Assembly (NCBI RefSeq): GCF_002159765.1
Contig: NZ_NFJH01000008.1
Coordinates: forward strand, 1 to 64,000
Source of the DNA: Collinsella sp. An268
GTDB taxonomy: Bacteria > Actinomycetota > Coriobacteriia > Coriobacteriales > Coriobacteriaceae
DNA length: 64,000 bases
Direction: 5' to 3'
Position numbers and translations under genes: made by a program. The notes under the pieces were generated by a model. That model was given only the letters and a program-made list of their open reading frames with translations. It had not been told where the DNA came from and made no database searches. Shown here piece after piece: positions 5,710 through 52,718 of this stretch; the first letter of the stretch is position 1; each line of letters begins with the position of its first letter.

Positions 5710-5774
5710 GGTGCGCGGCGAGCTGCCCGTGTTTAGAGCGGCCCCGCCCATTCCCTTATGTGAGGCTTTGTCTG

Positions 5775-5800
5775 AAGAGCGCCCCTTTGAGGGCGCTCTT
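5775..5800 (+). terminator. Terminator of the decarboxylase operon
   Basis: AAGAGCGCCC and GGGCGCTCTT form a 10-bp stem with a 6-base loop, followed by TTGTTG. It lies 66 bases after the oadA stop codon and marks the end of the five-gene transcript. Confidence 0.85.
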
Positions 5801-5903
5801 TTGTTGAGGAGCCAAACTGGCGTCGAACGTTTATCCCGGCCCCACCTCCCCGCGCGCCGGGATAAACCGGCAGATCGCGTACCCCTGAACAATCGGGAAT
5901 GAT

Positions 5904-6194
5904 GCGACGGATTGTATGCCCGCGCTGAAAAGGGGATGATGCGGTGGACTGAATGTCCGCGCGGAAAAGGGAGAGAAGCGGCGGATTGTATGAAATCTGG
6001 GGTAAAGACGGGGCGGATTGTATCTTTCCATACAATCCGCCCGTTCTTTGCACCCCTCTGAGCTGGGCTTTTGCCGTCGCAGAAACGGAACATACAATCT
6101 GCCTATACAATCTGCCGGCTTTCTCCCCATGGGGTCCCGAGCATACAATCTGCCGGTTTTATCCCCGCGGGGTCCCGAGCAAGCAACCCGTCCG
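5904..6194. repeat. Two opposed arrays of a degenerate ~37-bp repeat
   Basis: Four plus-strand units carry GCGGCGGATTGTATG-like cores starting at 5904, 5941, 5978 and 6009. Five inverse units (CATACAATCTGCC-like) start at 6030, 6091, 6104, 6142 and 6180. Spacing within blocks is mostly 37-38 bases, with similar filler between cores (CGCGC..GAAAAGGG on one side, ATCCCC..GGGGTCCCGAG on the other). The two blocks meet in a perfect hairpin, GGGCGGATTGTAT at 6011-6023 and its complement at 6030-6042. The whole 5710-6292 interval has no credible gene. The spacing is too short and uneven for a CRISPR array. Confidence 0.8.
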
Positions 6195-6292
6195 CATAAT
6201 CCCCCGCATCGCGGGACCAACCGTAGTGGATGCGGACGGAAGAGATGCCGGTGAGCGGTTGGCCACGCCTCGCGGCGCGACCGCCGACCTCG

Positions 6293-9200
6293 CTACACCA
6301 CGGTCACGCGGCCGGCGTTGCCCACGATCGCCTTCGCCTCGGCGATGAGCGGGATGGAGCGCGCGTTCACGCGCGTCGGAATCTCGGCACGCATGTGCTG
6401 GCCGTCGCGCTGCTCGATGAAGAGCTCAACGCGGTCGCCGCCGGGGTTGGTGGCGAAGAGCGCCGCCAGGCGGGCCATGTTGCTCTGGGAGAAGCGCGCG
6501 CTCGGCACCATCACCTCAAACACCTTGGGGCGGTTGGCCTCGTCGTTGAGCTCGAGCGGCAGCACCTCCTGCGCGATGATCTGGTCGCCGCGGTCGCTCC
6601 GCTCGAGCTTGCCGCGCACGCGGATGAACGCGTCCGAGAGCACGGCGCCCGTCTCGGGGTCGGTCTCGCCGTAGAGGAAGCTCTCGCACTCCTTGTAGAC
6701 CTTGGGGAACATGACGATGGTCGCCTCGCCCTCCATGTCCTCCAGGCGCACGATCGCCATGGGATCGCCCTTTTTGGTGACGCGCTTCCCCACCTCGGCG
6801 ACCATGCCGGCGAACCAGTACGGCTTGCCCTCGGGGATGGCCTTGTTGACGGTCCCGCCGCCGGGCGCCGCAACCTCAAAGCCCGTATCGATCTGCGAGA
6901 GCGTGTACTCGCGCGCCTTGCCGAGCGCGTACTCGTAGGGGCGCAGCGGGTGGTCGGAGACGTAGATGCCGAGCACCTCGCGCTCTTGGGAGAGCTTGGT
7001 GTGACGGTCCCACTCCTGCCCGTCCGGCTCGGGAACGGAGACCTCGAAGCCCGAGCCCTCCACGTCACCGAACATATCGAAGAATGATACCTGGCCCGAT
7101 GCCTGCTCCTTCTGACGGCGCGCGGCGGCGTCGACGATGTTCTCGGGGTTCTCCTTGTCGACGAAGCTCATGAGCTGACGGCGCGTGTACCCCGAAGAGT
7201 CGAACGCTCCTGCCTTGATGAGGGCCTCGATGACGCGGCGGTTCGCCTGGCTCGAATCGACACGGTCGACGAAATCGTGCAGGTTCTTGAAGGGACCGCC
7301 CGCCTCGCGCTCGGCGATGATCGCGTCGGCCACGCCCTCGCCCACGCCGCGGATGCCCGCGAGGCCGAAGCGGATACCCTCGGTGACGGCCGTGAACTCG
7401 CGGCCCGATTCGTTGACATCCGGCGGCAGCACCTGGATGCCGTCGTGACGGCAGGCCGAGATGTAGTGCACGATCTTATCGGTCTTGCCCGTATAGGACG
7501 TGAGCACGGCCGCCATGTACTCGTTGGGGTAATGGGCCTTCAGCCATGCCGTCTGCATAACGAGGATGGCGTAGCCGGCGGAGTGCGACTTGTTGAACGC
7601 GTAGGATGCGAACTCGAGCACGTCGTCCCAGATGCGCTGGGCGGTCTCGCGCTTGTAGTCGTTGCGCTCCGCACCGTTCATCCAATGGTCGTAGATGGTC
7701 TCCTCGTGCCCGTCCTCCCAGGTGAAGACCTGCTCGGTGAGCATCTTGATCTTCTTTTTGGCCACGGGCTTGCGGATACGGCTGTCCGACTCGCCCTTGG
7801 AGAAGCCGCACATCTCGACGGAGATGTTCATAACCTGCTCCTGGTAGACCATGGTGCCATAGGTCTCGCCCAAGATATCGTCCAAGCGCGGGTCGTAGGA
7901 GACGGCGGGCTCCTTGCCGTTCATGCGGTTGATGTAGCTCGTTACCATGCCGGCACCCAAAGGTCCCGGACGGTAGAGGGCGATCAGAGCGACCACGTGC
8001 TTGTACTCGGTCGGCTTCATGTTCTTGATCGTGGCCGTCATGCCGGCGGACTCGATCTGGAAGACGCCGGCGGTGTGACCGGTCTGCATCAGCTTGAAGA
8101 TCTCGGGATCGTCGAACGGGATCTCATCCGGGTTGATGTCGATGCCGAAGTTCGCCTTGATGTTCGCCTTCGCCTTGGAGATGACGGTGAGCGTACGGAG
8201 TCCCAGGAAGTCCATCTTGAGGAGGCCCATATCCGCCACGGTATGGCCTTCGTACTGCGTGATCTCCACGCCGCCCTTGGTGTCGAGCTTGGTGGGCACG
8301 TGCTCGTTCACCGGGTCGCGGCAGATAAGGACGGCGCAGGCGTGCACGCCCTCGCCGCGCGTCAGTCCCTCGATAGCGAGCGCCGCGTCGATGATGCGGC
8401 GGGCATCGTCATCGGTGCGGTAGGCGTCGGCGAAGTCGGGGTTGTAGTTCTCCTCGTGCCCCTCTTGGCGCTCGAGCACCTGACGGAGCTTGACCTTGGG
8501 GTCTGACGAGATCATCTTCGACAGGCGCTGGCCCATGTAGACGGGGAAGTCGAGCACGCGGGCCGCATCGTTGATGGCCTGCTTGGCCTTGATGGTCGAG
8601 TAGGTGATGACGTGGGTGACCTTCTCGGAGCCGTAGAGCTGGCGGACGTGCTCCACCACCTCCAGGCGACGCTCATCGTCGAAGTCCATATCGATATCGG
8701 GCATCTCGGTACGTTCCGGCGAGAGGAATCGCTCGAACATGAGGCCGTTGGACAGCGGGTCGAAGGTCGTGATGTCCATCGCATAGGCAACGAGCGCGCC
8801 CGCCGCCGAGCCACGGCCCGGGCCGACGCCGATGCCGTTCTGCTTGGCCCAGCGCACGTACTCCGCCACGATGAGGAAGTACGCCGCGAAACCCTTGTCG
8901 CAGATGACCTTGTACTCGAACTCGAAGCGCTCCTTGACGGAGACGCCGCCGATGACCTGGTCGGCCCAATCGTCGCCGTAGCGCTTGGCAAGACCGGCCT
9001 CGCACTCGCGGCGAAACTGGCTCTCATGCGTCTCGCCGGGGTCGAGCAGCGGGTAGCGCGGCAGGATGATCTGGCCCCACTCGAGCTGCACGTCGCATTT
9101 CTCGGCGATCTCGAGGGTGTTGTCGCAGGCCTCCGGGCAATAGGGGAACAGGGCGCGCATCTCCTCCTCGGTCTTCATGTAGAACTCCGAGCCCGTCATG

Positions 9201-38655: not shown

Positions 38656-39639
38656 TTAGTCTAGCAGACCGAGCGATGAGGTCAAGCGCTTTAGGAAAAG
38701 AAGCGCCGCCATGCTCGGGTTCTCGGGCGGTAACCCACATGCGTCGACTTCTGCAAACAGCTCCATGAGCGTGGCCTTGCGATCTGAACGGACCTCTCCC
38801 TTGGGAACGATCTGCGAGAAGAGATACAGCAGGCTGCATATCTGGACCATCCGGCGACTGCGGAACCACTTCGATCGCAGACGCTTAGGGATTCCAAGCG
38901 CGTTCATGGCGTTCACAAGAACAGCGGGCGAGCGCTTTGAGGGCGAGGGACTTGCGACATCGTTGAGAATGCATGCTCCATGTGCCCCAGCGTTGCGAAT
39001 TTGCCTCGAGTTCTTGAGCTGATAGTGGACGTCCCTCAGGTCTTTGTCGCCCCACCTGGCCGCGCAGAACCTCACGAGATCGGCGAAGATGCCGAACGGC
39101 ACCACCTCGCAGAACGCCCAAATTGGCATGTCGCCCAAGTACTTTCTCACAACGCCACCGGCGTAATGGTCGTTTCTCCTCTTCTTGAGCTCCCCCTCAA
39201 TGCGGGAGCGGTCGTTTTTGGGAAGGCTCGCGTGGTACGCGCGCATGATGGCGTAACCGTCCTCGCCGTGGTCCTCGGCAGCCGAGAGTAGGCGGACCTT
39301 TGCGAAGTGCTCGATGTCAAGAGTCATGGCGAGCAGGATGTCACGCAGCTGACGATCGAGATTCGACAGCGTCTTGAGATGACCGAAGTCGAGTTTCACG
39401 TACCTCCCGTCATGCGGGCCGCCGACGTATTTGGGAAAGAGCTTGCGGTAGGAGTAGACACGGAAGAACTGGCACTTGGTACGCAGATGAGCAACGGCAT
39501 CTTCCTCAGAGACGAGATCGAAGGTGATGCCCTTTGACTTCATGTGGGCTATTTGCTGCTCAACGGTAAGCATGGGCTTAGAATGACCCCCGGATGAGGA
39601 GGCGCCTTCTTCATCGCCAACGTTGCATACATCAGTCAT
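38656..39639 (-). CDS. Abi family (AbiD/AbiF-type) HEPN protein
   Basis: Predicted abortive-infection protein of 327 residues. It begins near MLTVEQQIAHMKSKGITF and has the Abi_2 blocks FFRVYSYRKLFPKY (about 58-71) and DRQLRDILLAMTLDIEHFAK (about 95-114). The HEPN ribonuclease motif R-N-x-x-x-H is present as SRQIRNAGAHG with Arg215, Asn216 and His220. AbiD/AbiF homologues stop phage growth, and HEPN proteins usually cut RNA. The start at 39639 follows GGTGG. It is 10 bases downstream of an XRE gene, so the regulator and effector may be one operon. Confidence 0.85.
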   Translation of the reverse strand: MTDVCNVGDEEGASSSGGHSKPMLTVEQQIAHMKSKGITFDLVSEEDAVAHLRTKCQFFRVYSYRKLFPKYVGGPHDGRYVKLDFGHLKTLSNLDRQLRDILLAMTLDIEHFAKVRLLSAAEDHGEDGYAIMRAYHASLPKNDRSRIEGELKKRRNDHYAGGVVRKYLGDMPIWAFCEVVPFGIFADLVRFCAARWGDKDLRDVHYQLKNSRQIRNAGAHGACILNDVASPSPSKRSPAVLVNAMNALGIPKRLRSKWFRSRRMVQICSLLYLFSQIVPKGEVRSDRKATLMELFAEVDACGLPPENPSMAALLFLKRLTSSLGLLD

Positions 39640-39649
39640 TTGTGACCAC

Positions 39650-40042
39650 CTACCGTTGGACGCACTTCTGCGAACGTATCGCATGCTCGCTCAGCTCCAC
39701 GTAGGAGAGGTAGCTGTCCACGAGGGCGCGGCCCTCGGGGCTGAGGGCGTCGTAGCGTGGCTGGATTCCCTCGGGCTCGGGCGCGTCGATGTCCTCGCGG
39801 CCGATGACGAGGTCGATGGAGCAGCCCAGCTTGTCCGCGATCTGCCAGGCGGCGGGCAGCGGGATGCCGCAGTCGGCGCCGTCGCCGGCGCGCTCGTAGC
39901 GCGCGTAGGTTGAGCCGGGGATGCCGAGCGCCTCGGCGAACTCCTTCGCGGAGCGGTAGCCCGCCTCGCGGCGGAGCCTCTGGAGTGTTCTTTTGCCGCT
40001 GATGGCCTTGTAGGGGGTTTGGGAGGTTGCAGTCAGTGACAT
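39650..40042 (-). CDS. XRE-type HTH regulator
   Basis: A 130-residue DNA-binding protein. The helix-turn-helix is RTLQRLRREAGYRSAKEFAE (about 18-37) followed by ALGIPGSTYARYE (about 38-50). The C-terminal part (RYDALSPEGRALVDSYLSYV) is shared with the larger paralogue at 40135-40821. It lies just upstream of the Abi gene and likely controls it, which is inference. GTGACAAG-type spacing gives a weak ribosome site. Confidence 0.85.
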   Translation of the reverse strand: MSLTATSQTPYKAISGKRTLQRLRREAGYRSAKEFAEALGIPGSTYARYERAGDGADCGIPLPAAWQIADKLGCSIDLVIGREDIDAPEPEGIQPRYDALSPEGRALVDSYLSYVELSEHAIRSQKCVQR

Positions 40043-40134
40043 ATACTTGTCACCGTCCCTTCTGGATTTGCCTCTGGACCGGACGCCGGCCCCGCGGGAG
40101 TGCCAGCTCCCGCGGGCCCACCTGTTTTGAGTCT

Positions 40135-40821
40135 CTACGCCCTCGCGTCACCTCCCCTCCCGCTCGCCGCGGAGTCGTACTCTACCGCGACGCCGTGGTC
40201 GACGGAGCCCCACAGTACCTGCATGCCCTCGAGCTCGAACTCGCCGTGGGTGCGGTCGTAGGCCGCCATGATCTTCTCGATGGTCCTGTTGTCGATGAGT
40301 TCCTGCGCCTTGAGCGGGTGCTTGCCGCGCTTCTTCGCCGCCTGCTCCTGGAGGAAGGACTCGAAGGTAGTGCGCGCCGCCTCGGCGCTGTCGAACGCGA
40401 CGAGCTCGCCGAAGGCGGCGCCGTCGCGCATCTGGGAGAGCATCTGCTGCTCGTACTGGTAGCAGAGCGCCTCGTAGGGGCGCTCCTCCTCGCGGCGGCG
40501 GTGCGCGCGGATCTTCTCGTCCTTCATGAGCACGAACTCGCGGAGCTCGTCGGCGAGCTGCCGCGCCTCGGGCGTGAGCCCGTCGTACTCGAGCTGCACC
40601 TCGCCGCGCGCGGTGCCCGGCGCCGGCGCCTTGCGGCCGACGATGGCGTCGATGGTGGTGCCGAGGATGTCCGCGAGCTGCCAGGCGCGGTCCATGGGGA
40701 TCTTGTCCGGGTTGGACTCGTAGCGCGCGTAGGTGGAGGCGGGTATCCCGTGCGCCTCGGCGAAGTCGTTGGCGTTCTTGTAGCCCGCCGCGCGGCGCAG
40801 CTCTAAGAGGTTGCTTGCCAT
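40135..40821 (-). CDS. XRE-type HTH regulator with C-terminal extension
   Basis: A 228-residue protein. Its helix-turn-helix (LLELRRAAGYKNANDFAEAH, then GIPASTYARYE, about 5-35) matches the shorter paralogue 92 bases downstream, as does YDGLTPEARQLADELREFVL (about 78-97). The remaining part is charged and helical (KDEKIRAHRRREEERPYEAL) and has no known domain. The ATG at 40821 is chosen because AAAGGTGG is well spaced. The two XRE genes probably arose by duplication. Confidence 0.82.
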   Translation of the reverse strand: MASNLLELRRAAGYKNANDFAEAHGIPASTYARYESNPDKIPMDRAWQLADILGTTIDAIVGRKAPAPGTARGEVQLEYDGLTPEARQLADELREFVLMKDEKIRAHRRREEERPYEALCYQYEQQMLSQMRDGAAFGELVAFDSAEAARTTFESFLQEQAAKKRGKHPLKAQELIDNRTIEKIMAAYDRTHGEFELEGMQVLWGSVDHGVAVEYDSAASGRGGDARA

Positions 40822-41181
40822 GGCGTCCACCTTTCTCGAGATGCCTGCGCCCCACGGAGAGAGGCACTTGGTGTCTCTCGTCTCCTTATTTCACTTCACA
40901 ACAGATACTATTATAGTTTGATAATTTAGTCTACGATAATTGATTATTTAATCTCAGATATTGAAGCTATTCTCTCTATTTAATATATTCTATGGTGTTT
41001 CGCCACGAACGGCGACGGAGCGCGCTACTTTCTAGAAGACAAGAACGGTGGGTGCGGAAGATATTGCTGATTCTTCCTAATCCATAGGACACATGTAGAG
41101 CTATGCGAAACAATTGAATCCCCGTCCCCGATATAATCTGAGTTTATTAAGGTTCTCCTGGAGATCCAAAGGGGGTTTGCT
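40822..41181. promoter_or_regulatory. AT-rich divergent promoter region
   Basis: These 360 bases are far richer in A and T than the rest of the window, mainly 40900-41000. ATAAT-TG-ATTAT (40936-40947) is a dyad, and GATAATT/GATTATT motifs recur nearby. On the minus strand a TATAAT near 40910-40916 may serve the XRE gene. On the plus strand TATAAT at 41132-41137 lies 45 bases before the membrane-protein start. No gene is seen. Confidence 0.5.
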
Positions 41182-42414
41182 GTGACAATTGAATTGATTG
41201 CCACCGTGATTGTCCCAATCCTTGCTGCAGTGCTCTCTCTAATTGGATCTCTTTTTTCAGAGGTCAGCCAGCGTGGGCGCATCAAAACCGACATTGCGAT
41301 ATATCGAAATCTCACCTCAAAATTGGATTACAATCAGGAAATATCCAACTCGCTCAATATACTCTCCGAGCACATTGAGCGGGAGCTGAGCATGCTTGCC
41401 GGCGGCAGGGCGCGCTGGACATGCCTGCCGAGAGCAGTAGCACTTCTTGCTCTAGGAGGAATGCTGTTCTTTGTTGTCGTTCGCCTCGCTTCGCTTCTGG
41501 ATGTGACTGACTTCTTTTCTCCTCTCAGTTTGTATGCGTATTTCCTTCTGCTTATACTTGGTGCTTGGTGCCTAATGTCGGGGCTGAGAAACTTGTATCG
41601 ATACGTTGCCCTTAAGTCACAGCTACTCCTCATCCTCGATGAGGCAAGGACATCTCTAAGAGCGCTCACGAAACTGAGCCAGAACCTCCATCAATCCGTC
41701 GATACCCAGAGCAAGCTTTCCAATCTTTTCAAAAAGGTTGCCATCAGTTTGGAAACCCCTCAGACAAATCTTGTTAACGAGGCCTCGAATGCATCATTCG
41801 ATATCTTTGACAGTATTAGAGGCTTGAAAAAACTTCAGAAGGCGCTCAAAGAGCACGAAGAGCAGGTAAACCGGGATATTTCAAGAAAGAACGAACTTAT
41901 CGCGTCCGCAAACAGCACTTTGCGAAATGCTAGCTTCGTGGAAGATCGCACACTGTTTTCCCTATCCCTTAGGCGGATGCGCCTAAGGCTTGCTGAAAGG
42001 CGTTCAGAACTTGAAGCCATGGAGAATCTGCTGATTGAGGCGAAGGACAACATTGCCTGGTGCCGAGGTGCGGTTGACGAATCAATACGACTTTACGAAA
42101 GCTTGTCTGGAAATGAGGCAGGCAATAAGCGTGTCGTACTTAAAGATTCAAGTGGATTGCTCGCCTTCGATACCTCTGAGGAGCTCTATAAGAGAGAGCA
42201 CCTTGAAAACTTCTTCTCGGACTTATCAGACGGTCGTTTTGAGATCATCAGAGCGAACGGCCCTCACAACATCCTCGTCGTTGCGCAACAAAACGCTAAT
42301 GAGATATACAAAGGGCATCGTACACTTACGATACTTGGCTTTCTCACCGCCAAAGATGGACATTTTCCCAGCTATCTCAGGATTAGTCATGCTCCTGTGC
42401 GACATGTGCCATAG
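41182..42414 (+). CDS. Unknown membrane protein with coiled coil
   Basis: A 410-residue protein with three membrane helices (about 4-24, 84-102, 112-134) and a long charged helical region (about 140-310) that looks like a coiled coil, for example KLQKALKEHEEQVNRDISRK and RLRLAERRSELEAMENLLIE. The last 80 residues may fold separately. The start is GTG at 41182 after AAAGGGGG. GC is clearly lower than in core genes and codons such as ATA, TTA and AGA are frequent, so it was probably acquired by transfer. No family is recognised. It lies between the XRE genes and the type III R-M genes. Confidence 0.7.
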   Translation: MTIELIATVIVPILAAVLSLIGSLFSEVSQRGRIKTDIAIYRNLTSKLDYNQEISNSLNILSEHIERELSMLAGGRARWTCLPRAVALLALGGMLFFVVVRLASLLDVTDFFSPLSLYAYFLLLILGAWCLMSGLRNLYRYVALKSQLLLILDEARTSLRALTKLSQNLHQSVDTQSKLSNLFKKVAISLETPQTNLVNEASNASFDIFDSIRGLKKLQKALKEHEEQVNRDISRKNELIASANSTLRNASFVEDRTLFSLSLRRMRLRLAERRSELEAMENLLIEAKDNIAWCRGAVDESIRLYESLSGNEAGNKRVVLKDSSGLLAFDTSEELYKREHLENFFSDLSDGRFEIIRANGPHNILVVAQQNANEIYKGHRTLTILGFLTAKDGHFPSYLRISHAPVRHVP

Positions 42415-42808
42415 CCATTGAGGGAAAGCGAGCACGGCCCCCTTACGACAAAACATGAGAATCCCTGTGAGAGGGTTTGTCAACTTTCGTAAGTGTGATG
42501 AGTGTGTCGGGGCGTCCGAAGCCGACAGGGGAGATGGTAAACAAGGCCGCCGTGCTCAAAGCGTACGGTTACTCCAACGACGGCATCGTTTGAGCACAAG
42601 TATCCACGAATTGACATCTTACAGCTGGACCGTCAGCTTCAATAACAAGCAACGGCACGCTAAGCAAGGACCTAAAGCCAGCGAGCGCATGAAGGGATGT
42701 TCTCCCCGCCCTGCGTGAACCGACTTTTCAACATGTCTGGTCCCTGTGGGATAATGGTTGCATTGTGTTGTTAACCGTCACGGCTTGTGCCGGATTGGAT
42801 GTGCGTCA
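42415..42808. other. Intergenic region with possible gene debris
   Basis: A 31-codon frame at 42498-42593 (MSVSGRPKPTGEMVNKAAVL, then KAYGYSNDGIV) and a following stretch reading KYPRIDILQLDRQLQ in another frame look like decayed coding sequence. Neither is long enough to name. AT content is intermediate. No promoter for the mod gene was identified with confidence. Confidence 0.35.
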
Positions 42809-44557
42809 ATGCCGACTCTCAACTGGATGGGCAAGGAGAAGGTGGTCAACCACCACCGTGACGTCCCGTATCGCGTGCTCGAGCGCGTACCCGAGAAGGG
42901 CGTGCTCGACAGCCACGGCTCGGACTGCGGGAACATGGTCATCCACGGCGACAACCTCGAGGCGCTCAAGGCGCTGCTGCCGGAGTACGAGGGCAAGGTT
43001 GACTGCATCTACATCGATCCGCCGTACAACACCGGCAACGAGGGGTGGCGCTACAACGACAACGTCAACGACCCTCGCATCAGGAAATGGCTTGGTGAAG
43101 CCGTGGGCAAGGAGGGCGAGGACTTCAGCCGCCACGACAAGTGGCTGTGCATGATGTACCCGAGGCTTCAGCTGCTGAGGAAGCTGCTCTCCCCGACGGG
43201 CGCCATTTTCATCAGCATTGACGATACGGAGCTCGCGAACCTGAGGCTCGTGTGCGACGAGATCTTCTCTCCCTCGTGTTTCGTCTCCGATGTGTCCTGG
43301 CAGCGAAACTACTCGACCAGAAACGACTCCAAGGGCATCCCAGCCGAGGTCGAGCATATGCTCGTCTACAGCAAGGCGCCCGGCTGGCAGCCCCGCAAGC
43401 TGCCGCGCACGTCGGAGATGGACTCGAAGTACAAGAACCCAGACAACGACGTCATGCCTTGGAGAAGTAGCGACGCATTCGCGCCAGGCGCCGCGACCCA
43501 CCAGGGAATGGTTTATGCGATTCAGCATCCCTTTACCGGCAAGTTGCTATACCCGTACAGCGGGTCCTGCTGGCGGTACCAGCAGGACAAGATGCTCGAC
43601 TACATGAACGGCTGGTGCCCGTATGTCCTCAAGGATCTGGACGACGCAGATCGGAGGGCCGAGGTCTGCGGTCTCGACGCCTCCGAGGTCCGTGAGGGAG
43701 TCAAGGGCATCGTGCTCGCCCAGTCCGTCGAGGAGTCGAAGGCCATGGCCTCCGCAATCCAGAAGACGGGCCCGTGGCCGAGGTTCTTTTTTTCCAGAAA
43801 CGGGAAGGGTGGAATCGCTCGTAAGACCTATATCGACAGTGTAGGAGGGCGACTGCCGACGAACTATTGGCCCTACTCCGAGGTCGGCCACACCGACGAG
43901 GCCAAGAAGGAAATCAAGACAATCTTCGGCGGAAAGGCCCCGTTCGACACGCCGAAGCCTACGCGCCTGATTGAGCGTGTGCTCCAGATTGCTGTGGGCG
44001 ACGACGCCCTCGTGCTCGACTCCTTCGCGGGCTCCGGCACGACGGCGCACGCGGTCTTGAGGCTCAACGCAGTGGACGGCGGCTCCCGCCGTTTCATCCT
44101 CGCCGAGCTTGACGGCTACGCCGACACCGTCACTGCCGAGCGCGTCCGCCGCGTCATCGCGGGCTACGGCGAGGGAGGCAACGCCGTAGAGGGCATCGAC
44201 TCCGGCTTCTCCTACTACGAGCTCGGCCCCGCGCTCTTCCGGGGCGACGGGACGCTGAGTCCGGACGTCACGCGCGCGGACCTCGCCCGCTACGTGTGGG
44301 CGACGGAGACGCGCGCGCCCTACGAGGACCTCGCCGACGAGCACCCTTACCTCCTCGGAGAGCACGCGCAGGCGGTCTACTACCTCGCCTGGGAGCCCGG
44401 CGAGGAGACCGCGCTCACCTACGACCTGCTACGAGGCCTCCCGCGCAAGGGGTCGCCGACCGTGATCTACGCGGACCGCTGCGCCATCGCGCCCGAGCGC
44501 CTTGACGAGATGGGCGTCGTCTTCAAGCGCGTGCCCGACCAGATAGCGAGGATCTAG
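42809..44557 (+). CDS. Type III restriction-modification DNA methyltransferase (Mod)
   Basis: Adenine methyltransferase of 582 residues that sets sequence specificity for both subunits of a type III system. Motif IV is YIDPPYNTGNEGW (about 68-80), and the SAM-binding motif I is VLDSFAGSGTTAHAVL, which comes after it, the beta-class order of Mod proteins. The middle part between them (about 160-370) would be the target recognition domain. A short C-terminal domain follows. The start at 42809 (MPTLNWMGKEK) is preferred; 17 upstream codons are open. res follows after two bases. Confidence 0.92.
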   Translation: MPTLNWMGKEKVVNHHRDVPYRVLERVPEKGVLDSHGSDCGNMVIHGDNLEALKALLPEYEGKVDCIYIDPPYNTGNEGWRYNDNVNDPRIRKWLGEAVGKEGEDFSRHDKWLCMMYPRLQLLRKLLSPTGAIFISIDDTELANLRLVCDEIFSPSCFVSDVSWQRNYSTRNDSKGIPAEVEHMLVYSKAPGWQPRKLPRTSEMDSKYKNPDNDVMPWRSSDAFAPGAATHQGMVYAIQHPFTGKLLYPYSGSCWRYQQDKMLDYMNGWCPYVLKDLDDADRRAEVCGLDASEVREGVKGIVLAQSVEESKAMASAIQKTGPWPRFFFSRNGKGGIARKTYIDSVGGRLPTNYWPYSEVGHTDEAKKEIKTIFGGKAPFDTPKPTRLIERVLQIAVGDDALVLDSFAGSGTTAHAVLRLNAVDGGSRRFILAELDGYADTVTAERVRRVIAGYGEGGNAVEGIDSGFSYYELGPALFRGDGTLSPDVTRADLARYVWATETRAPYEDLADEHPYLLGEHAQAVYYLAWEPGEETALTYDLLRGLPRKGSPTVIYADRCAIAPERLDEMGVVFKRVPDQIARI

Positions 44558-44559
44558 CC

Positions 44560-47199
44560 ATGGAGCTGAAACAGTACCAGAGGGACGTCCTCAGGGAGGT
44601 CGGCCGCTTCGCGAGGACGTACGCGATGACCAGGGACGCGAAAGCCGCTTACGACCGGTTCATGGGCGACATTGGCCTCACGCCCGGGCAGGGCGGCGTC
44701 TCGCGCTACCACGACGACCTGGGCGGCGTGCCCAAGGTCTGCGTCAAGGTGCCGACGGGCGGTGGGAAGACCTTCATCGGCGCCTGCGCCGCCAAGGTGC
44801 TGGCCGAGACGCTGCCCTCGCGCGACGACGTCATCGTGTGGCTCGTGCCGCGCAGGGAGATCCTCGCGCAGACGCTGCGCAACATGCGCAACCCCGAGCA
44901 CTTCCTGCGCATCCAGCTCGACCGCGACTTCGCCGGCCGCGTGGAGGTTCTCGACAAGGAGGACGGGCTGCGCGGGCGCTCGTTCAGCGCCGCGACCGTG
45001 GGCGACCAGCTCACGCTCTTCGTTCTGTCCTACGATTCGTTCAAGAACAAGGACGGCCGGCGCGCCTACGCCGAGAACTCTGCGGTTGCCAACGTGACCG
45101 AGTACCAGCGCGCCGCCGGTACGGCGGTGTCGGTGGAGGGTGCCGACGACACGGCGCTCATCTCGGCGCTCGCCGGCTTCAACCCCATCGTCATCGTGGA
45201 CGAGAGCCATCACGTCGGAAGCAAGCTCTCGCTCGACATGCTCAGAAACCTCAACCCGCGCTTCGTGCTGGAGCTCACGGCGACGCCCGACCCCAAGCAC
45301 GCCAACGTGATCGCGCAGGCGACCGCCCGCCAGCTCAAGACAGAGGAGATGGTCAAGCTCCCCGTGGTGGTCTACCGCCGCCCCGACAAGCGCACCACCG
45401 TCGCCGACGCCGTCATGCTGCAGCGCAGGCTGGAGGCCATCGCGGAGCAGGACGAGCGCCGTACCGGCCGCTATATCCGCCCCATCGTGCTCTTCCAGGC
45501 GGAGCGGCGCGGAACCGACGACGCCGAGACCTACCAGAAGCTCAAGGACAAGCTCGTGGAGGGCGGCATCCCCGAGGAGCAGATCGCCATCCGCACCGGC
45601 GACATGGACGAGCTGCGCGGCGCCGACCTCATGGACCGCGCGTGCCCGATACGCTTCATCATCACCGTGGAGGCGCTCGCCGAGGGCTGGGACTGCCCGT
45701 TCGCCTACGTGCTGGCCACGGTGGCGAACAAGAACTCGCAGGTGAGCGTCGAGCAGATCGTGGGACGCGTGCTGAGGCAGCCTTACGCGGCCCGCGCCGG
45801 CGCCCGCAGCCTGAACATAGCCTATGTGCTCACGGCGTCCTCCGACTTCGACCGGACGCTGCAGCAGGTCGTGGACGGCTTGAACGGCGTGGGCTTCTCG
45901 CGCGAGGACGTCGCCGAGGCGGGCCCCGCGCCCACCTCCGGGCAGCAGGGGCAGCTGGACTTTACGCCCTCGCCCTCCGCCGACGAGGAGGGCGAGGAGC
46001 TCGACCTCGACGGGCTCGACCTGCACTTCCCTGCGGCCGATCCTATGGGGAGCGAGGCTTCCGGCGATGGAGGCGGCCACGGCCCCGCGAGCCCGTTTGT
46101 TGACGACATCATCGAGGAGTCTGAGGCCGTCGAGGAGCAGTTTGAGAACGAGACCGGCCACGGCGGGCTTGACACCCTCGCCGGAGGACTGGGAGGAGGA
46201 GCGAACGTGTACCCCATGCGCGACGAGGCGGCGGATTCCGCCCGGGCGCTCGCCGTCCCCCAGTTCGTCATCCGCGTTGACGGCGGGCTTTTCACCGACG
46301 ACGAGACGTGGAAGCCGCTCGACCGCGAGGACCCGCTTCGCGATTTCAAGCTCTCGAAGTACGGCATCGACCGCGTGACCATCAATCCGGCGACGTTCTC
46401 CGATGCGCGCGAGATCGACCTGACCGAGGACTCTGACGAGTACAAGATCCGATGGATCGAGGAGGACATCCGCAAGAACATGCGGATGCTGTTCAACAAC
46501 ATGTCAGACGAGGGCAAGCGCGAGAGCCTCAAGGCGGCGATCTACAAAGCCATGTCCGGCCAGTTCAAGAACACCTATGGCGAGCAGCAGATCACCCGCT
46601 TCATCAAGCGTGTGGTCGAGGACATGGAGTCACCGGACGTCGAGGCGTGCTACGACAGCATCGGCAACGTGACCCGCGCCATCACTGATGCCGTGCGGAG
46701 CCTGGCCGACGACTTCTGCGAGGACCGCTTCGAGAAGCTGCTCTCGCGGGGCGACGTGAAGATCAGCCCCGAGTACCGCTTTCCTGACAGCTTCACGCAG
46801 ACGAGCCCCCTCACGAGCTATGCGAAGTCGCTCTACGCGGCGGAGGACGGACGCATCGACGGCGCCGAGCGGCAGATGATCGACCTTCTGGCCAACAACC
46901 CGCGCGTTGTCTGGTGGCACCGCGTCGTGGAGCGCCGCGAGGGCGAGTTCAGCATCAACGGGTTCATCACGCACTATCCTGACTTCCTCGCGCTGCGCGA
47001 CGACGGCACCCTCATGGCCATAGAGACGAAGGGCGAGCACTTGAAGGGCGACGACTCCAGGCTCAAGCTGAGCCTGGGTACGCGCTGGGCCGATATGGCC
47101 GGCGGAAAGTTCCGCTACTTCATGGTGTTCGCCAGCGAGGCGCTCGACATGCCGAACTCGTACACACTTGCAGAATTCGGTTCAGAGATATTGGGGTAG
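44560..47199 (+). CDS. Type III restriction endonuclease (Res)
   Basis: Superfamily 2 ATPase and nuclease, 879 residues. Walker A is VPTGGGKTF (64-72), the DEAD-type box is VIVDESHHVG (about 209-218), SAT is replaced by ELTATPDPKH, and the motif VI region is VEQIVGRVLRQPY. An acidic linker (about 460-540) leads to the C-terminal PD-(D/E)XK nuclease, HYPDFLAL (805-812) and AIETKG (820-825). The start follows the mod stop by two bases. Length and order are as expected for an intact type III system. Confidence 0.92.
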   Translation: MELKQYQRDVLREVGRFARTYAMTRDAKAAYDRFMGDIGLTPGQGGVSRYHDDLGGVPKVCVKVPTGGGKTFIGACAAKVLAETLPSRDDVIVWLVPRREILAQTLRNMRNPEHFLRIQLDRDFAGRVEVLDKEDGLRGRSFSAATVGDQLTLFVLSYDSFKNKDGRRAYAENSAVANVTEYQRAAGTAVSVEGADDTALISALAGFNPIVIVDESHHVGSKLSLDMLRNLNPRFVLELTATPDPKHANVIAQATARQLKTEEMVKLPVVVYRRPDKRTTVADAVMLQRRLEAIAEQDERRTGRYIRPIVLFQAERRGTDDAETYQKLKDKLVEGGIPEEQIAIRTGDMDELRGADLMDRACPIRFIITVEALAEGWDCPFAYVLATVANKNSQVSVEQIVGRVLRQPYAARAGARSLNIAYVLTASSDFDRTLQQVVDGLNGVGFSREDVAEAGPAPTSGQQGQLDFTPSPSADEEGEELDLDGLDLHFPAADPMGSEASGDGGGHGPASPFVDDIIEESEAVEEQFENETGHGGLDTLAGGLGGGANVYPMRDEAADSARALAVPQFVIRVDGGLFTDDETWKPLDREDPLRDFKLSKYGIDRVTINPATFSDAREIDLTEDSDEYKIRWIEEDIRKNMRMLFNNMSDEGKRESLKAAIYKAMSGQFKNTYGEQQITRFIKRVVEDMESPDVEACYDSIGNVTRAITDAVRSLADDFCEDRFEKLLSRGDVKISPEYRFPDSFTQTSPLTSYAKSLYAAEDGRIDGAERQMIDLLANNPRVVWWHRVVERREGEFSINGFITHYPDFLALRDDGTLMAIETKGEHLKGDDSRLKLSLGTRWADMAGGKFRYFMVFASEALDMPNSYTLAEFGSEILG

Positions 47200-47203
47200 T
47201 ACG

Positions 47204-48745
47204 TTGTCAGTAACTAATGACAGTATCGACTTTAGAGCACTCAGCCAAGACCAGTGGGAGGACTTGTGCTTCGACACTCTGGTCTTCGAATATCCCGGTC
47301 TGCGCAGAATCGATGGAAGTGGTGGCGATGGCGGTGTCGATGCTTATGTCGGCGAGTTTTCCAGTCCGGACATCATCTTTCAGTTCAAGCATTTCAAGAA
47401 GGGTTTCGGCGCGCCTCAGAAAAAGGAAATCGAGCGCTCGTTCAATACCGCCTCTGGTTCATACGACTTGCCCCACTGGATACTGGTGTGCTCAGAAGAT
47501 CCTACTCCCGCCATGCAAAACTGGCTTGATGAGTTCAAGACGAAGCGAAACGGCACGAAGATCGAGTACATCCTTGGCTCTGAAATGCGAGCGAAGGTCA
47601 TCAATCATCCAAAGGTGAGAAAACAGTATTTCCCGAACATTCAGGATGCTTTGGAAAGTCTAAGCAGCGAGCCGCCACACAATCCTTTGGCTGCAGCGGC
47701 GCGTGACGTCAGAGTCTACAACGATGTCTTGCTCGACGACAGGTTCACAGCGACGGTCACGACTGACGGCGAGACGGAAACCGTCGTCTACTCTCTCAAG
47801 CCATGGGTGAAAGAGCCTGTGCCCGCAGTGAAACTGCGTATCAAAACCCCTCAGGGCGCCCAAGCAGTTGAGGGACTCATTAAAGAGGGCCACTCGTTTG
47901 AGCTGGGAACAGACGACATTGGCCTCACGTCGCTGATCGATCCCTCATTGCATGATGCAGACATTGTTTCGATAAAGGCGTTTTCCCTGCCGCAGACACA
48001 CCCTGCGGCCTTGAGTATTTTCGCAGGAGATGACCCTGCGAAAAGCTACCCGTTGCACATCGAACTTAAGACGGTTCGAGAAGGTTCCGAGGTGCTCGTC
48101 AGGTCAAACGCTGGCCAAAACACGGCACCGATTGCTATTACTATGACATTCCGAAAAGCCGCTCCATTGAAGAACTGCACGGTAAGCATTACCCCCAGAT
48201 TCATGGGAAAGACTGTCCGGCAAGCCGCTCGGGGCGCACGCTTTCTAAGACGGCTCGATGAAACAAAAACGCTTGGAATCGCGGAGGAGAACTCTGACCT
48301 AGAAGATGCCTCTTTCATGGCGCTTGGGGACTTCTCAGACGATTTGCCTTGGCGATATTTCGGGGATCTCTTCGACGCGATTGATGCAACCTGCCGTTTG
48401 TTTTGTATCAACCCCACTGTTACTGAGGAGATTGATAACCCTGATTTTGTTGCATCCATGCTCGAGTTCGGTCGAAAGGTGATGCGTGTCGGCACAGAGA
48501 TCGAAGGCTCTGTTTCCTTTGAGCTGAGCGAAGAGAATGCCGACTTAGAGGAAAAAGCGGCCGCCCACGAGCAGATTTGCGTTGTCGTTGATCAGGTGTG
48601 GAACGGGATGGTTTTCGGAGAAGCTTGTTCTGCTGATGTGAGGATTGCGGCAAAGGGACTTTTGGAGCAGGTTGATTCTGACCAAGGCAATCTCTTCAAA
48701 ATCGTCGGCTCGTATTACTACTACATCCAGGCGGCGTCGAATTAA
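47204..48745 (+). CDS. Mrr-like nuclease-domain protein downstream of type III R-M
   Basis: A 513-residue protein. The N-terminal 130 residues look like an Mrr/PD-(D/E)XK nuclease: WEDLCFDTLVFEYPGL with Glu19, SGGDGGVDAYVG with Asp46, and IIFQFKHFKKG with Gln60-x-Lys62. The remaining ~380 residues are a mixed beta region with no known domain. TTG at 47204, four bases after the res stop, is the likely start; TTG at 47168 inside res is possible. GC is lower than in mod and res. No start ATG is available. It may be a third component of the cassette or an independent defence gene. Confidence 0.75.
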   Translation: MSVTNDSIDFRALSQDQWEDLCFDTLVFEYPGLRRIDGSGGDGGVDAYVGEFSSPDIIFQFKHFKKGFGAPQKKEIERSFNTASGSYDLPHWILVCSEDPTPAMQNWLDEFKTKRNGTKIEYILGSEMRAKVINHPKVRKQYFPNIQDALESLSSEPPHNPLAAAARDVRVYNDVLLDDRFTATVTTDGETETVVYSLKPWVKEPVPAVKLRIKTPQGAQAVEGLIKEGHSFELGTDDIGLTSLIDPSLHDADIVSIKAFSLPQTHPAALSIFAGDDPAKSYPLHIELKTVREGSEVLVRSNAGQNTAPIAITMTFRKAAPLKNCTVSITPRFMGKTVRQAARGARFLRRLDETKTLGIAEENSDLEDASFMALGDFSDDLPWRYFGDLFDAIDATCRLFCINPTVTEEIDNPDFVASMLEFGRKVMRVGTEIEGSVSFELSEENADLEEKAAAHEQICVVVDQVWNGMVFGEACSADVRIAAKGLLEQVDSDQGNLFKIVGSYYYYIQAASN

Positions 48746-48787
48746 GACAAACGGCTAGCGCATTCGTCATCTTGTGACGCGTCTTTA

Positions 48788-48818
48788 GCCTGTACCCATC
48801 TGATGGGTGCGGGCTTTT
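48788..48818 (+). terminator. Terminator of the R-M cassette
   Basis: GCC...ACCCAT and ATGGGT...GGGC form a stem followed by TTTTTG. A second hairpin, GCGGGC and GCCCGC around the T-tract (48809-48828), can form instead. It lies 43 bases after the stop of the Mrr-like gene. Confidence 0.75.
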
Positions 48819-49076
48819 TGTTGCCCGCAGGAGTCGAAAGGACGGGTGGCATGGATGGCTTGCAGAGCGGGGCGAAAGGTCTTGCCAATATAACGATGAA
48901 TAAAGCGTACAAACCCCCATGGGCAGTTCCACACTCGCGGCGCCACCGTACCGACTTTATCCTTTGACATCCCACTGTGACGGTGTTTGCGGTATAACAG
49001 TCGGGGCGACACGGATGCGCGGGGCAGACGCAACGCAGACACCGAGCCGTCCATCCCAATTCACATATCACCCACT

Positions 49077-50669: not shown

Positions 50670-51224
50670 CTAGGCATCCGGTCGAATCAGGTCATCCAAG
50701 CAGTATTCCCCTCGCGGGATATGGGAAAGGCGTCGATACTCCCTTGCCGCCGCAATGATAGAGGGGGCGTCCCAATATTCCTCAAGATAGTTCGTCCGCT
50801 TAATCTCTTTCATGCCTAACTGTTGGGAGCAGTAGTCACTCGGCTTTGTCTTTGACTTTCTTTTGTGCCAGCGTTCCCACTCTCCCTGTCGAATGATCGC
50901 AAGGACCTCGATTTCGGGATGCGTAAACGCCGTCACCACGGGGAACCTGTCGGCATACAGCCTTCCAAGCTTAAACGCCTCATGTCGCGAGTCGGCAATG
51001 CGCACAAGACATACCGGCCAGTCGAAGTCGAAGTTCAGGAGGTCATTCTGAACGTTCGCCGCCGAAACTCTGCGCACGACATCGACCACCTCGTCCTTAG
51101 GAAAACGCAAGGCGTCCGCATCCAACAGCTTTTGGACTATTACTCTTTCCGCGGAGCCCTCGCAAAGGATGATGGGATGATAATGCCTTTCCACAAGTTG
51201 TGTAAGCATATCGTCGCTACCCAT
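50670..51224 (-). CDS. TOPRIM-like partner of an ABC-type ATPase
   Basis: A 184-residue protein. PIILCEGSAERVIVQKLLDA (about 17-36) resembles the first TOPRIM strand and its Glu, VRIADSRHEAF (about 74-84) could hold the metal Asp residues, and FTHPEIEVLAII (about 100-111) resembles the acidic NP.xE block of RloB/AbiL-type small partners. The ATG overlaps the end of the ATPase gene by 8 bases. ATPase-plus-TOPRIM pairs include AbiL, RloAB, PARIS and Gabija. The residues fit none of these clearly. GC is low for the window. Confidence 0.6.
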   Translation of the reverse strand: MGSDDMLTQLVERHYHPIILCEGSAERVIVQKLLDADALRFPKDEVVDVVRRVSAANVQNDLLNFDFDWPVCLVRIADSRHEAFKLGRLYADRFPVVTAFTHPEIEVLAIIRQGEWERWHKRKSKTKPSDYCSQQLGMKEIKRTNYLEEYWDAPSIIAAAREYRRLSHIPRGEYCLDDLIRPDA

Positions 51225-52398
51225 GGGAGACCACCTGCTCCACATGGCCCCTCAATGCCTTTACATCTACGTAACGAGGCGCTGTGCCCTTGATGTAGTT
51301 TGCTGCGAACACCTCAGATTTTTTGTTCTCGATGCGTTTCACCTTGGTGGAATACTTCACCACAGTCGACAAGCAATTTGTCCCACGCGCAAGGAAGTAC
51401 ACGTTGTCTTTCCGATGCACATGGTCAAGTACTTGCGGGTAATGCGTGGTGAACACTATCGTGGCACCGTTTGGATTGGTGCTTTTGTTCACAAACAAAT
51501 CAAGTACCACTTGCACGAGTTGACGATTCAGGTGGTTTTCAATCTCGTCCACAAGCAAATAGCCACCCGTTGTAAGAGCGCTTAGCGCTCGATACACCAG
51601 GCTAAGCCCTCGCATCGTTCCCGAAGATAGGACCTCCGCCAAACCTTCGGCAGACAAAAGCAATGGCTCTTCGTTTTCAAATTGCAGGATAAATGCGCGT
51701 CCCGAATCTTGCGGCTCGAGATGAGAAATCCTTGCATCAAAAACCTTCAGAATGCGATCGGTTCCCTCTGTTGCCTGTCGCAACGTAAATCCCTCTTCGG
51801 AGAAAACCGGAAGAGAGGGCCTACCACCGCACTCGTAGCTAATCACCGGAGAGGCGATGGACAGGTTGAAGCTCGAAACAATAGTCAGATCGAGAAGCGG
51901 CTTGCTGCGTTGGTATACGAGCTGTGCCACATCCAGTAGCTCATCCCAAGAAGCGAGATGGGATTTCTTAAGCAACGAAGATGGAATGGAGAAGATGAGC
52001 TCCTCGCCAAACGTAAGCTCCCGGTCGTATCCGCCCGGTGTGAACTCTGGCGTAAGAAGCGTGGACTTGACAAGAAAGTACTTCCCCCCTTCCCATACAA
52101 GGCAGCGAAGTGTCGAGGGTCCGTTGAACAGGGTGCACAGCGCTGACAATGACTCTGTCCCGCTAATGGACCGACCGTTCAACACTCTCGCAGCCAAATC
52201 AATGAGGCGCAGCGCGGTCGATTTGCCCGATGCGTTGATGCCTGCAAACGCCAAGATATTGTTGGTATAGATCGGTCGCTCAAGCTCTGTTGCCGACGAA
52301 TCTGACGCGGGAACTCTGTCGGAAGTAAAGAAGTCGAGATCAAAAACTCCGTCTTCGAACATTTTCAAATGGTCGAAATACATTTTGAGAAGTCTCAT
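51217..52398 (-). CDS. ABC-type (AAA_15/21-like) ATPase of a probable defence pair
   Basis: A 393-residue ATPase of the OLD/RloA/PARIS style. Walker A is AGINASGKSTALRLID (about 52-67), the signature is SSGTMRGLSLVYRAL (about 258-272), Walker B is GGYLLVDEIENHLN (about 278-291) and the switch His is FTTHYPQVLDH (about 316-326). Between Walker A and signature is a ~190-residue insertion without coiled coil. TTG at 52407 is an alternative start. It is the first gene of the pair and overlaps its partner, so they are almost certainly co-translated. GC is low compared with the flanking core. Confidence 0.82.
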   Translation of the reverse strand: MRLLKMYFDHLKMFEDGVFDLDFFTSDRVPASDSSATELERPIYTNNILAFAGINASGKSTALRLIDLAARVLNGRSISGTESLSALCTLFNGPSTLRCLVWEGGKYFLVKSTLLTPEFTPGGYDRELTFGEELIFSIPSSLLKKSHLASWDELLDVAQLVYQRSKPLLDLTIVSSFNLSIASPVISYECGGRPSLPVFSEEGFTLRQATEGTDRILKVFDARISHLEPQDSGRAFILQFENEEPLLLSAEGLAEVLSSGTMRGLSLVYRALSALTTGGYLLVDEIENHLNRQLVQVVLDLFVNKSTNPNGATIVFTTHYPQVLDHVHRKDNVYFLARGTNCLSTVVKYSTKVKRIENKKSEVFAANYIKGTAPRYVDVKALRGHVEQVVSHG

Positions 52399-52718
52399 CG
52401 CAACCAACTTTCATTTTCGACCGATATTTTTGTTTAAAGTATAACACCAGATGCGACGTAATGACAATGAGTGACAGGCGAGACGCATCGCCTGAGTAGC
52501 AAGAAGGCGCCTGCTGGAACAGGCGCCTTAACCACACCGCGCCGCCCGTAGCTCCCTCTAGATCACGGGCCCGCTGGCAACATCACTATACCGCGCAGTC
52601 CGCACCGCTAGTCAACCGATGCCTAAAGATTTCGGCAGCGGTGCTCGCCCCACGCTCCACGCCCAGCGGACGTCACGTACAATGACGACAGTGACGCGTC
52701 TTGGGGATGGGAGTCGAG
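52399..52718. other. Divergent region with one strong hairpin
   Basis: No gene is seen in these 320 bases. The side next to the ATPase gene is AT-rich (TTTAAAGTATAACACC), which on the minus strand gives a possible promoter. A hairpin lies at 52504-52529. Confidence 0.45.
52504..52529. terminator. Hairpin between the ATPase and the 52.7-kb gene
   Basis: AAGGCGCCTG and CAGGCGCCTT are perfect 10-base arms around CTGGAA. No T-tract follows on either strand. It lies between divergent genes, so it would be a leader structure or a relic terminator. Confidence 0.5.

Follow-up and report, generated by a model that had tools for sequence, protein, structure and literature searches.

Classical type III restriction–modification (R–M) systems have two genes, mod and res. 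In the 64,000-nucleotide (nt) stretch of the gut-type bacterium Collinsella sp. An268 analysed here (contig NZ_NFJH01000008.1, positions 1–64,000; hereafter the window), such a pair is followed almost without a gap by a gene for a predicted nuclease, and the question is what this third gene is doing there. A first-pass annotation set the trio against the two-gene rule; the rule holds, although accessory nuclease and toxin genes in type I and type III loci have been known since 2012 (PMC3506569, in excerpt). With a little better than even confidence, we read the third gene as cargo of an exchangeable effector slot, situated behind a type III mod–res pair in the remnant of a prophage hotspot and encoding an autonomous second-line nuclease.

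Organization of the mod–res locus

42809–44557, + strand: mod, type III DNA methyltransferase (ATG start; 582 residues; DPPY motif)
44560–47199, + strand: res, type III helicase–nuclease subunit (ATG start; 879 residues)
47204–48745, + strand: third gene, predicted PD-(D/E)xK (Mrr/Avs-like) nuclease (TTG start; 513 residues)
48787–48815, + strand: hairpin of 13 bp ending in a T tail, a likely terminator that falls within the conserved right border described below

Gaps of 2 nt between mod and res and 4 nt between res and the third gene, as first annotated, hold the three genes together. By composition the pair is of type III: an N6/N4 methylase Mod (Pfam N6_N4_Mtase, 6.3e-33; PADLOC MTase_III, 8e-176) adjoins a ResIII-helicase Res (Pfam ResIII, 2.8e-14; PADLOC REase_III, 7e-75). 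The TTG start of the third gene is supported because homologues align from the same point. From the spacing, the three genes are likely to form one transcript, so that the third gene would probably be expressed from the mod–res mRNA. The annotated terminator is borne out by one strong hairpin with a T tail behind the third gene, the longest among nine terminator-like sites on both strands (4.7 expected from shuffled sequences). Upstream of mod, the sole promoter-like site (42728–42755) is at chance level (1 found, 1.2 expected).

Contents of the slot behind res

A census of the Res lineage (E up to 1e-30) across 395 genomes of the order Coriobacteriales gave 19 places in 18 genomes, in which relatives of the window Res have 38–78% identity; 18 places were scored, and G773, whose contig ends 778 nt behind res, was left out. 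By this comparison the gene order recurs: in 13 of the 18 scored places, window included, the gene that follows res is of a defence family, with three Mrr-like genes (counting the window and a res remnant in G019), three Abi_C, three AbiH, one GajA–GajB pair, one PHP-AAA and two GmrSD. One or two members of each slot family were tested, and the genes of G024, G586:C4, G571 and G019 were assigned by identity to these. The next genes and their gaps to res are listed below.

Mrr-like: G000 (the window genome), 4 nt; G016, 16 nt; G019 (res remnant), 13 nt
Abi_C: G024, 13 nt; G023, 13 nt; G586:C4, 14 nt
AbiH: G068, 8 nt; G647, 9 nt; G571, 9 nt
GajA, then GajB: G015, 59 nt
PHP-AAA: G586:C8, 130 nt (PHP by eye; AAA by Pfam, PADLOC mad3 and PDC-M49A)
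GmrSD_N: G674, 26 nt
GmrSD_N + GmrSD_C + RAMA: G785, 27 nt
HsdS-like frame: G779, 35 nt (open at the contig end)
Radical-SAM gene: G809, 6 nt (PADLOC viperin models, 2.7e-15)
No next gene: G704, G828 and the res fragment G810

When G704, G828, G809 and G810 were rechecked for frames of 80 codons starting within 600 nt, G809 alone had one; its radical-SAM gene is likelier of another kind than viperin. At Res identities of at least 65% (11 places, window included), a co-directional next gene is found in 11 of 11 and a defence family in 10, the HsdS-like frame of G779 being the exception.

These contents bear on the idea that the third protein is a true third subunit, altering type III cleavage or specificity. 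A 4-nt spacing would permit translational coupling of such a subunit to res; however, close mod–res relatives (Res 75–78%) carry unrelated genes in the slot and more distant ones sometimes none, which leaves a subunit very improbable indeed. The nuclease would instead act alone, as a second layer of defence.

A gene of about 298 residues without a known family follows Abi_C at L043 10477–11373 (+) and L045 8606–9502 (−), with an overlap of about 46 nt from its first start codon, and is a possible Abi_C partner.

Exchange of cargo at one site

The Res proteins of G024, G586:C8, G647 and G571 are mutually 92.5–95.2% identical, and their cargo is Abi_C, PHP-AAA, AbiH and AbiH, respectively. G024 and G023 share an Abi_C cargo that is 98.2% identical, although their identity is 82.0% in Res and 62.5% in Mod.

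The borders of the exchange were located by blastn on 13 chosen pairs. Where the cargo differs or has diverged (nine pairs), DNA homology breaks off every time between −4 and +1 nt of the res stop codon's end; where the cargo is the same (four pairs), it continues past res in each. A break at the stop codon alone is expected for any differing next gene; replacement at one site is shown by the resumption of homology beyond the cargo, seen in six of the nine pairs (for example, at G024 +1802/G647 +2382 and G024 +2417/G586:C8 +2746). No resumption was found by blastn for G024/G015, G000/G016 and G000/G015. Judged from these alignments, the slot behind res is exchangeable, with one cargo replacing another at the same site. 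The ends of mod are conserved, and most pairs lose DNA homology in a middle stretch that, from its position, would be the target-recognition region; specificity therefore seems to have been exchanged too.

A defence hotspot in a prophage family

39650–40042, − strand: prophage-type helix–turn–helix (HTH) regulator, mostly within the block 39685–40906
40135–40830, − strand: prophage-type HTH repressor, within the same block
42457–42676, + strand: short fragment left of mod, 69% identical to a relative's prophage
47199–48770, + strand: exchangeable slot, which extends from the res stop up to where prophage homology resumes and contains the third gene and no further gene
48771–48875, + strand: right border, made up of an intergenic stretch and the beginning, now decayed, of a scaffold-like prophage gene (ATGGATGGCTTGCAG at 48851)

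Aligned to the prophage of a relative, the window matches in order at 39685–40906 (repressors, 90%), 42457–42676 (69%), 42699–47198 (mod–res, 78%) and 48771–48875 (78%), with nothing between 47198 and 48771. By this comparison the window locus resembles a prophage in decay, with the third gene occupying the interval from res to the scaffold gene. The border of about 100 nt past the slot was found in seven of 11 systems tested (G000, G586:C8, G024, G647, G571, G674 and, in part, G586:C4). It begins about 25 nt past the third gene in the window and farther away elsewhere, up to 4.9 kb behind res, and a further copy lies in L069 (G005), near another type III system. Between G674 and G586:C8 the border is 97% identical and Res just 51%. 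It runs into the start of the scaffold-like gene (phrog_31118; Pfam Phage_scaffold below the cut-off), and a major head protein gene (phrog_422) comes next; the genes upstream in G571 are for portal (phrog_533), primase, HTH proteins that have homologues in the window, and integrase. No tRNA or Rfam element was found in the loci and window stretch searched.

The head protein retrieves 36 loci from IMG/VR, of which 25 were examined; open reading frames (ORFs) were read in nine loci and 10 proteins were tested. A portal gene was seen in nine of the 25, at 6.2–9.5 kb from the scaffold gene in eight and at 2.4 kb in the most distant locus. Queries for R–M and cargo genes match nine of the 25 loci, L128 and L134 among these carrying another type III pair, and give no match in the other 16. 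Window-type mod–res occurs in two loci, with AbiH (L116) and with Abi_C (L118), which may duplicate strains already counted. L117 encodes a C-5 methylase and an EcoRII-C protein, the latter's gene being overlapped by 4 nt by one for Abi_C; L127 has an N6-methylase, a second gene that is HsdS-like by eye without a Pfam match, and a GmrSD_N gene 30 nt on. Cargo is related across these R–M types, at 73% for the Abi_C behind the C-5 methylase and EcoRII-like protein and 64% for the GmrSD_N behind the N6-methylase gene pair. As the last gene ahead of the scaffold gene, L124 has Abi_2 and L121 a GHKL ATPase; the gene at this place in L119 and L120 matches no defence family above the cut-off. With defence genes replaced between fixed phage genes and the border present in seven of 11 systems, the site is, by locus comparison, a defence hotspot between the portal and scaffold genes of a prophage family.

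Start codons form a separate observation. A TTG start is possible for all nine tight cargo genes (G000, G016, G019, G024, G023, G586:C4, G647, G571 and G068, the last also with GTG), which span three unrelated families; the IMG/VR cargo genes start with TTG in L116 and L118, GTG in L117 and L127 and ATG in L135. TTG starts may tune the level of the effector.

Three further places in the window were noted. A 342-residue protein, Abi_2 (AbiD/AbiF)-like by eye, is encoded at 38656–39684 (−) and adjoins the prophage regulators. Between these regulators and mod, 41182–42414 (+) encodes a 410-residue protein without a Pfam or PHROG match (best NCBIfam E 0.024). On the other side, an AAA ATPase near the AbiLi model (2e-30) at 51217–52407 (−) overlaps a gene at 50670–51245 (−) for a 191-residue protein with no family match, and the two are possibly a two-gene defence system.

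Homologues of the nuclease with and without mod–res

A family profile of the third protein, run against the same 395 genomes, found five full-length relatives, in G000, G016, G019, G584 and G784, the last split between two frames. Matches to the nuclease domain only occur in six further genomes, four of them in frames of 1464–1499 codons. No homologue was found in IMG/VR, plasmid or phage collections, a genome-contig scan gave two matching contigs, the same pair that a genome search had found, and 396 genomes sampled from the phylum added no full-length homologue to those of G000 and G019.

Intact mod–res precedes the nuclease gene in two of the five (G000 and G016). In G019 an intact gene (538 residues) follows a 143-residue ORF that matches Res residues 753–873, and that genome has no Mod match at E 0.001. 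In G584 and G784 no mod or res query matched in the surrounding 18 kb and 6.8 kb read, respectively. The association with mod–res suggested by the first-pass annotation is thus repeated, with two intact pairs and one res remnant, but it is not specific: the slot is exchangeable and two of the five genes stand alone.

This distribution bears on a second alternative, in which the nuclease is a guardian silenced by contact with Mod/Res and freed when a phage inhibits them, like PrrC with EcoprrI. The position of the gene in an R–M operon fits such a guardian, as do the abortive-infection families Abi_C and AbiH among its slot-mates and the precedents of PrrC and PARIS (PMC12707154 and PMC3710099, in excerpt). 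However, the gene persists in G019, which has neither a Mod match nor an intact Res, and in G584 and G784, with no adjoining mod–res; such cells would be unprotected from the nuclease, because the silencer would be bound Mod/Res. With three of the five homologues lacking intact mod–res alongside, the linkage that would mark a PrrC-type guardian is not seen, and related Abi_C and GmrSD_N cargo stands behind unrelated R–M types. We regard this guardian as improbable. More broadly, a partner-specific guardian or a subunit is unlikely because two effector families follow both type III and type II- or I-like genes and because the nuclease persists without Mod. The earlier suggestion of a backup role finds indirect support in the abortive-infection and other defence genes held by other slot copies, although the pairing is not specific to the nuclease gene.

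A wider form of guarding is conceivable but, in our view, doubtful: prophages would pair any R–M type (III, II or I-like) with any of at least six effector families, the effectors being universal plug-in guardians that sense general R–M failure and not a particular partner. The signs of failure proposed for them are DNA ends, intact phage replication or an anti-restriction protein, and the 513-residue nuclease would, just as doubtfully, represent a new guardian family.

Motif and predicted fold of the third protein

Comparison of the five homologues, one of them by its N-terminal frame alone, finds W18, E19, E29, D42, D46, Q60, F61 and K62 identical in all, down to about 32% identity. The complete Mrr-type Glu/Asp/Gln-x-Lys motif reported in the first-pass annotation is invariant among them; in the window protein it reads E19 (or E29), D46 and Q60-F-K62. 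PADLOC 2.0.0, which includes PDC models, gives weak matches, the best to LmuA (1.1e-5) and another to Avs2 (8e-4). E. coli Mrr has an N-terminal winged-helix domain and then its catalytic domain; the third protein differs, with a catalytic domain from about residue 10, at the N terminus, and with no winged-helix model matched ahead of it. Pfam matched no SRA, wHTH or other modification-reader domain in it, and no ATPase domain.

Solved structures searched by sequence gave no match to the third protein at E up to 1. An AlphaFold2 model built on three sequences is usable only for residues ~10–142, with a per-residue confidence (pLDDT) of 73–76 at residues 11–30, 48–64 at 31–60, where D46 lies, and 60–88 at 61–140; its elements follow the PD-(D/E)xK order. 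VIA-align, applied as a second look at the 1000 best Foldseek chains and used for the ranking, places Avs4 first (8dgf_B; Z 11.1, root-mean-square deviation 3.0, 133 residues), then AspBHI (4oc8; Z 9.7), 1y88, of unknown function (Z 9.6), and MspJI (Z 8.9 and 8.4). The third protein is therefore predicted to be a PD-(D/E)xK nuclease, and the check by structure prediction that the first-pass annotation called for returned this fold, at low confidence near D46. The C-terminal ~370 residues have no assigned fold: residues 143–386 are without a usable model, and a beta-rich model of residues 390–512, at middling confidence, is lost when the C-terminal region is folded alone (mean pLDDT 36).

The same fold matches raise a serious rival, a modification-dependent (type IV) nuclease that cuts foreign-methylated or hypermodified DNA and covers phages that Mod/Res cannot cut. 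MspJI is modification-dependent, and the entry title says the same of AspBHI; genes of the GmrSD family occupy two slot copies. Pointing the other way, the top match is the nuclease end of Avs4, whose structure was solved bound to a phage portal protein; no reader domain was found by Pfam; and most slot-mates, namely Abi_C, AbiH, Gabija and PHP-AAA, are not known to be modification-dependent. A precedent in its favour is TgvAB, a GmrSD-related pair in a type I operon that restricts phages with hypermodified DNA (PMC11411939, in excerpt). Overall, a type IV role is possible but unlikely.

Relation to known systems

Avs proteins consist of a nuclease fused to a STAND ATPase and a sensor, about 1500 residues in all, and Lamassu combines the LmuA nuclease with an LmuB SMC partner. 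The window protein resembles the effector nucleases of Avs4 in fold and of Avs2 and LmuA in weak profile matches. It differs from Avs in having 513 residues without an ATPase model, against 1534 residues in 8dgf, so that the nuclease-domain fold alone matches, and from Lamassu in that the window slot holds no SMC partner and the LmuA profile match is just the weak one above; it falls within neither system.

Many type I and type III R–M systems carry toxin-like HEPN, Sir2, ParB and REase domains that repeatedly displace one another (Makarova 2012, PMC3506569, in excerpt). The REase-fold, Sir2, ParB and HEPN genes of those loci are alike in kind to the cargo, a general hypothesis there as against one mapped slot here. 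TgvAB in the type I operon of VPI-2 and RloF between hsdR and hsdS likewise place a second defence gene within an R–M operon (PMC11411939); these are type I operons with the extra genes between the R–M genes, whereas the window system is of type III with its cargo behind res. PrrC is a backup nuclease gene in the EcoprrI locus (excerpt of PMC12707154), but that protein, a tRNA nuclease of the HEPN type, has an ABC domain and is kept in check by its own R–M enzyme (excerpt of PMC3710099), whereas the window protein has a DNase-type fold and relatives also without mod–res. Three-gene loci also arise in type III systems where an ATPase gene is added on the 5′ side (PMC8259958, in excerpt); they differ in that the extra gene of the window is downstream and exchangeable. 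Alike again are the ‘guilt by embedding’ candidates, defence genes housed in other defence systems (Payne and colleagues, as cited in the excerpted text of PMC12988326 and PMC11411939). No description of the slot was recognised from titles and abstract starts, which is weak evidence as most subscription papers and preprints lie outside that coverage.

Other type III lineages

Nine of 53 plasmid records with a Res relative were read (at most 49% identity among the 20 matches listed). Plasmid L095 ends 16 nt past res, and the other eight have no co-directional annotated gene of usual size within 30 nt behind res in a gene table that is incomplete; what follows res is a 40-residue overlapping gene in L091, a 155-residue gene at +39 in L093 and Fic at +130 in L089. 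The notion that a third gene is a general type III feature was rejected, as the plasmid Res relatives in these records show no clear gene of the sort.

A same-family control started from 16 weak Res matches, four of which had no mod match and were dropped (L073, L074, L077 and L080). A second type III lineage (Res of about 1055 residues, eight systems) has a co-directional gene within 10 nt behind res in five of eight: two genes of 377 residues, of which one protein was tested for family, genes of 172 and 153 residues and a SIR2_2 protein, the only one of a defence family. A third lineage (Res of about 960 residues, four systems) shows no clear next gene; one system lies near a contig edge and in one an ORF overlaps res in its longest reading.

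The second-lineage genes without a known family lie 0–10 nt behind res, at L075 5782–6915 (−), L076, L081 5982–6500 (−) and L082 9490–9951, and are candidates for new effectors. In three of the eight systems a gap of 600–700 nt separates mod from res (L078 6113–6748, L079 (reverse) 5712–6413 and L084 5299–5918), where antisense frames resemble small toxin–antitoxin pairs by eye.

Discussion

We favour the view that the third gene is cargo of the slot and works on its own. The nuclease would stay idle until infection triggers the C-terminal region, its likely sensor, and would then cut DNA, either the invading DNA or all DNA as in abortive infection, once a phage has escaped Mod/Res. Several observations weigh against this interpretation. 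Defence genes cluster anyway, so neighbourhood alone is no proof of joint function; of the 18 scored places, three lack a co-directional ORF near res, a radical-SAM gene occupies another and an HsdS-like frame a further one; and four of the 11 systems tested (G016, G015, G023 and G068) gave no match to the prophage border. A slot of this sort is a trait of some type III lineages, and the second lineage partly contradicts a slot special to that of the window. Just five full-length homologues were found, one split between frames. For the nuclease itself, the window protein falls below the Pfam Mrr_cat cut-off (13.6 bits, E 0.074, against a cut-off of 21 that the G016 homologue passes at 22.6 bits), model confidence is low around D46 (pLDDT 48–52 at residues 31–50), and Foldseek alone gave no match at E 0.001, with an RNA polymerase subunit in its top row (3.3e-3) and Avs4 in the fourth (9.1e-3). 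The sensor role of the C-terminal 370 residues is a guess, as that region gave no model.

That R–M systems are coupled to suicide or backup effectors is a proposal more than a decade old, and it seems to have been argued mostly from scattered examples. Accessory toxins in R–M loci were already proposed in 2012; shown here are one slot, its borders, the exchange within one site and the prophage setting. One mod–res lineage thereby offers a natural replacement set at one site with sharp borders, in which nearly the same res is followed by different effectors, and with which one can test whether an effector acts alone, needs its R–M partner or answers anti-restriction. The slot also predicts a function for genes of no known family that are found in it: the nuclease described here and, perhaps, the unnamed genes behind the second type III lineage.

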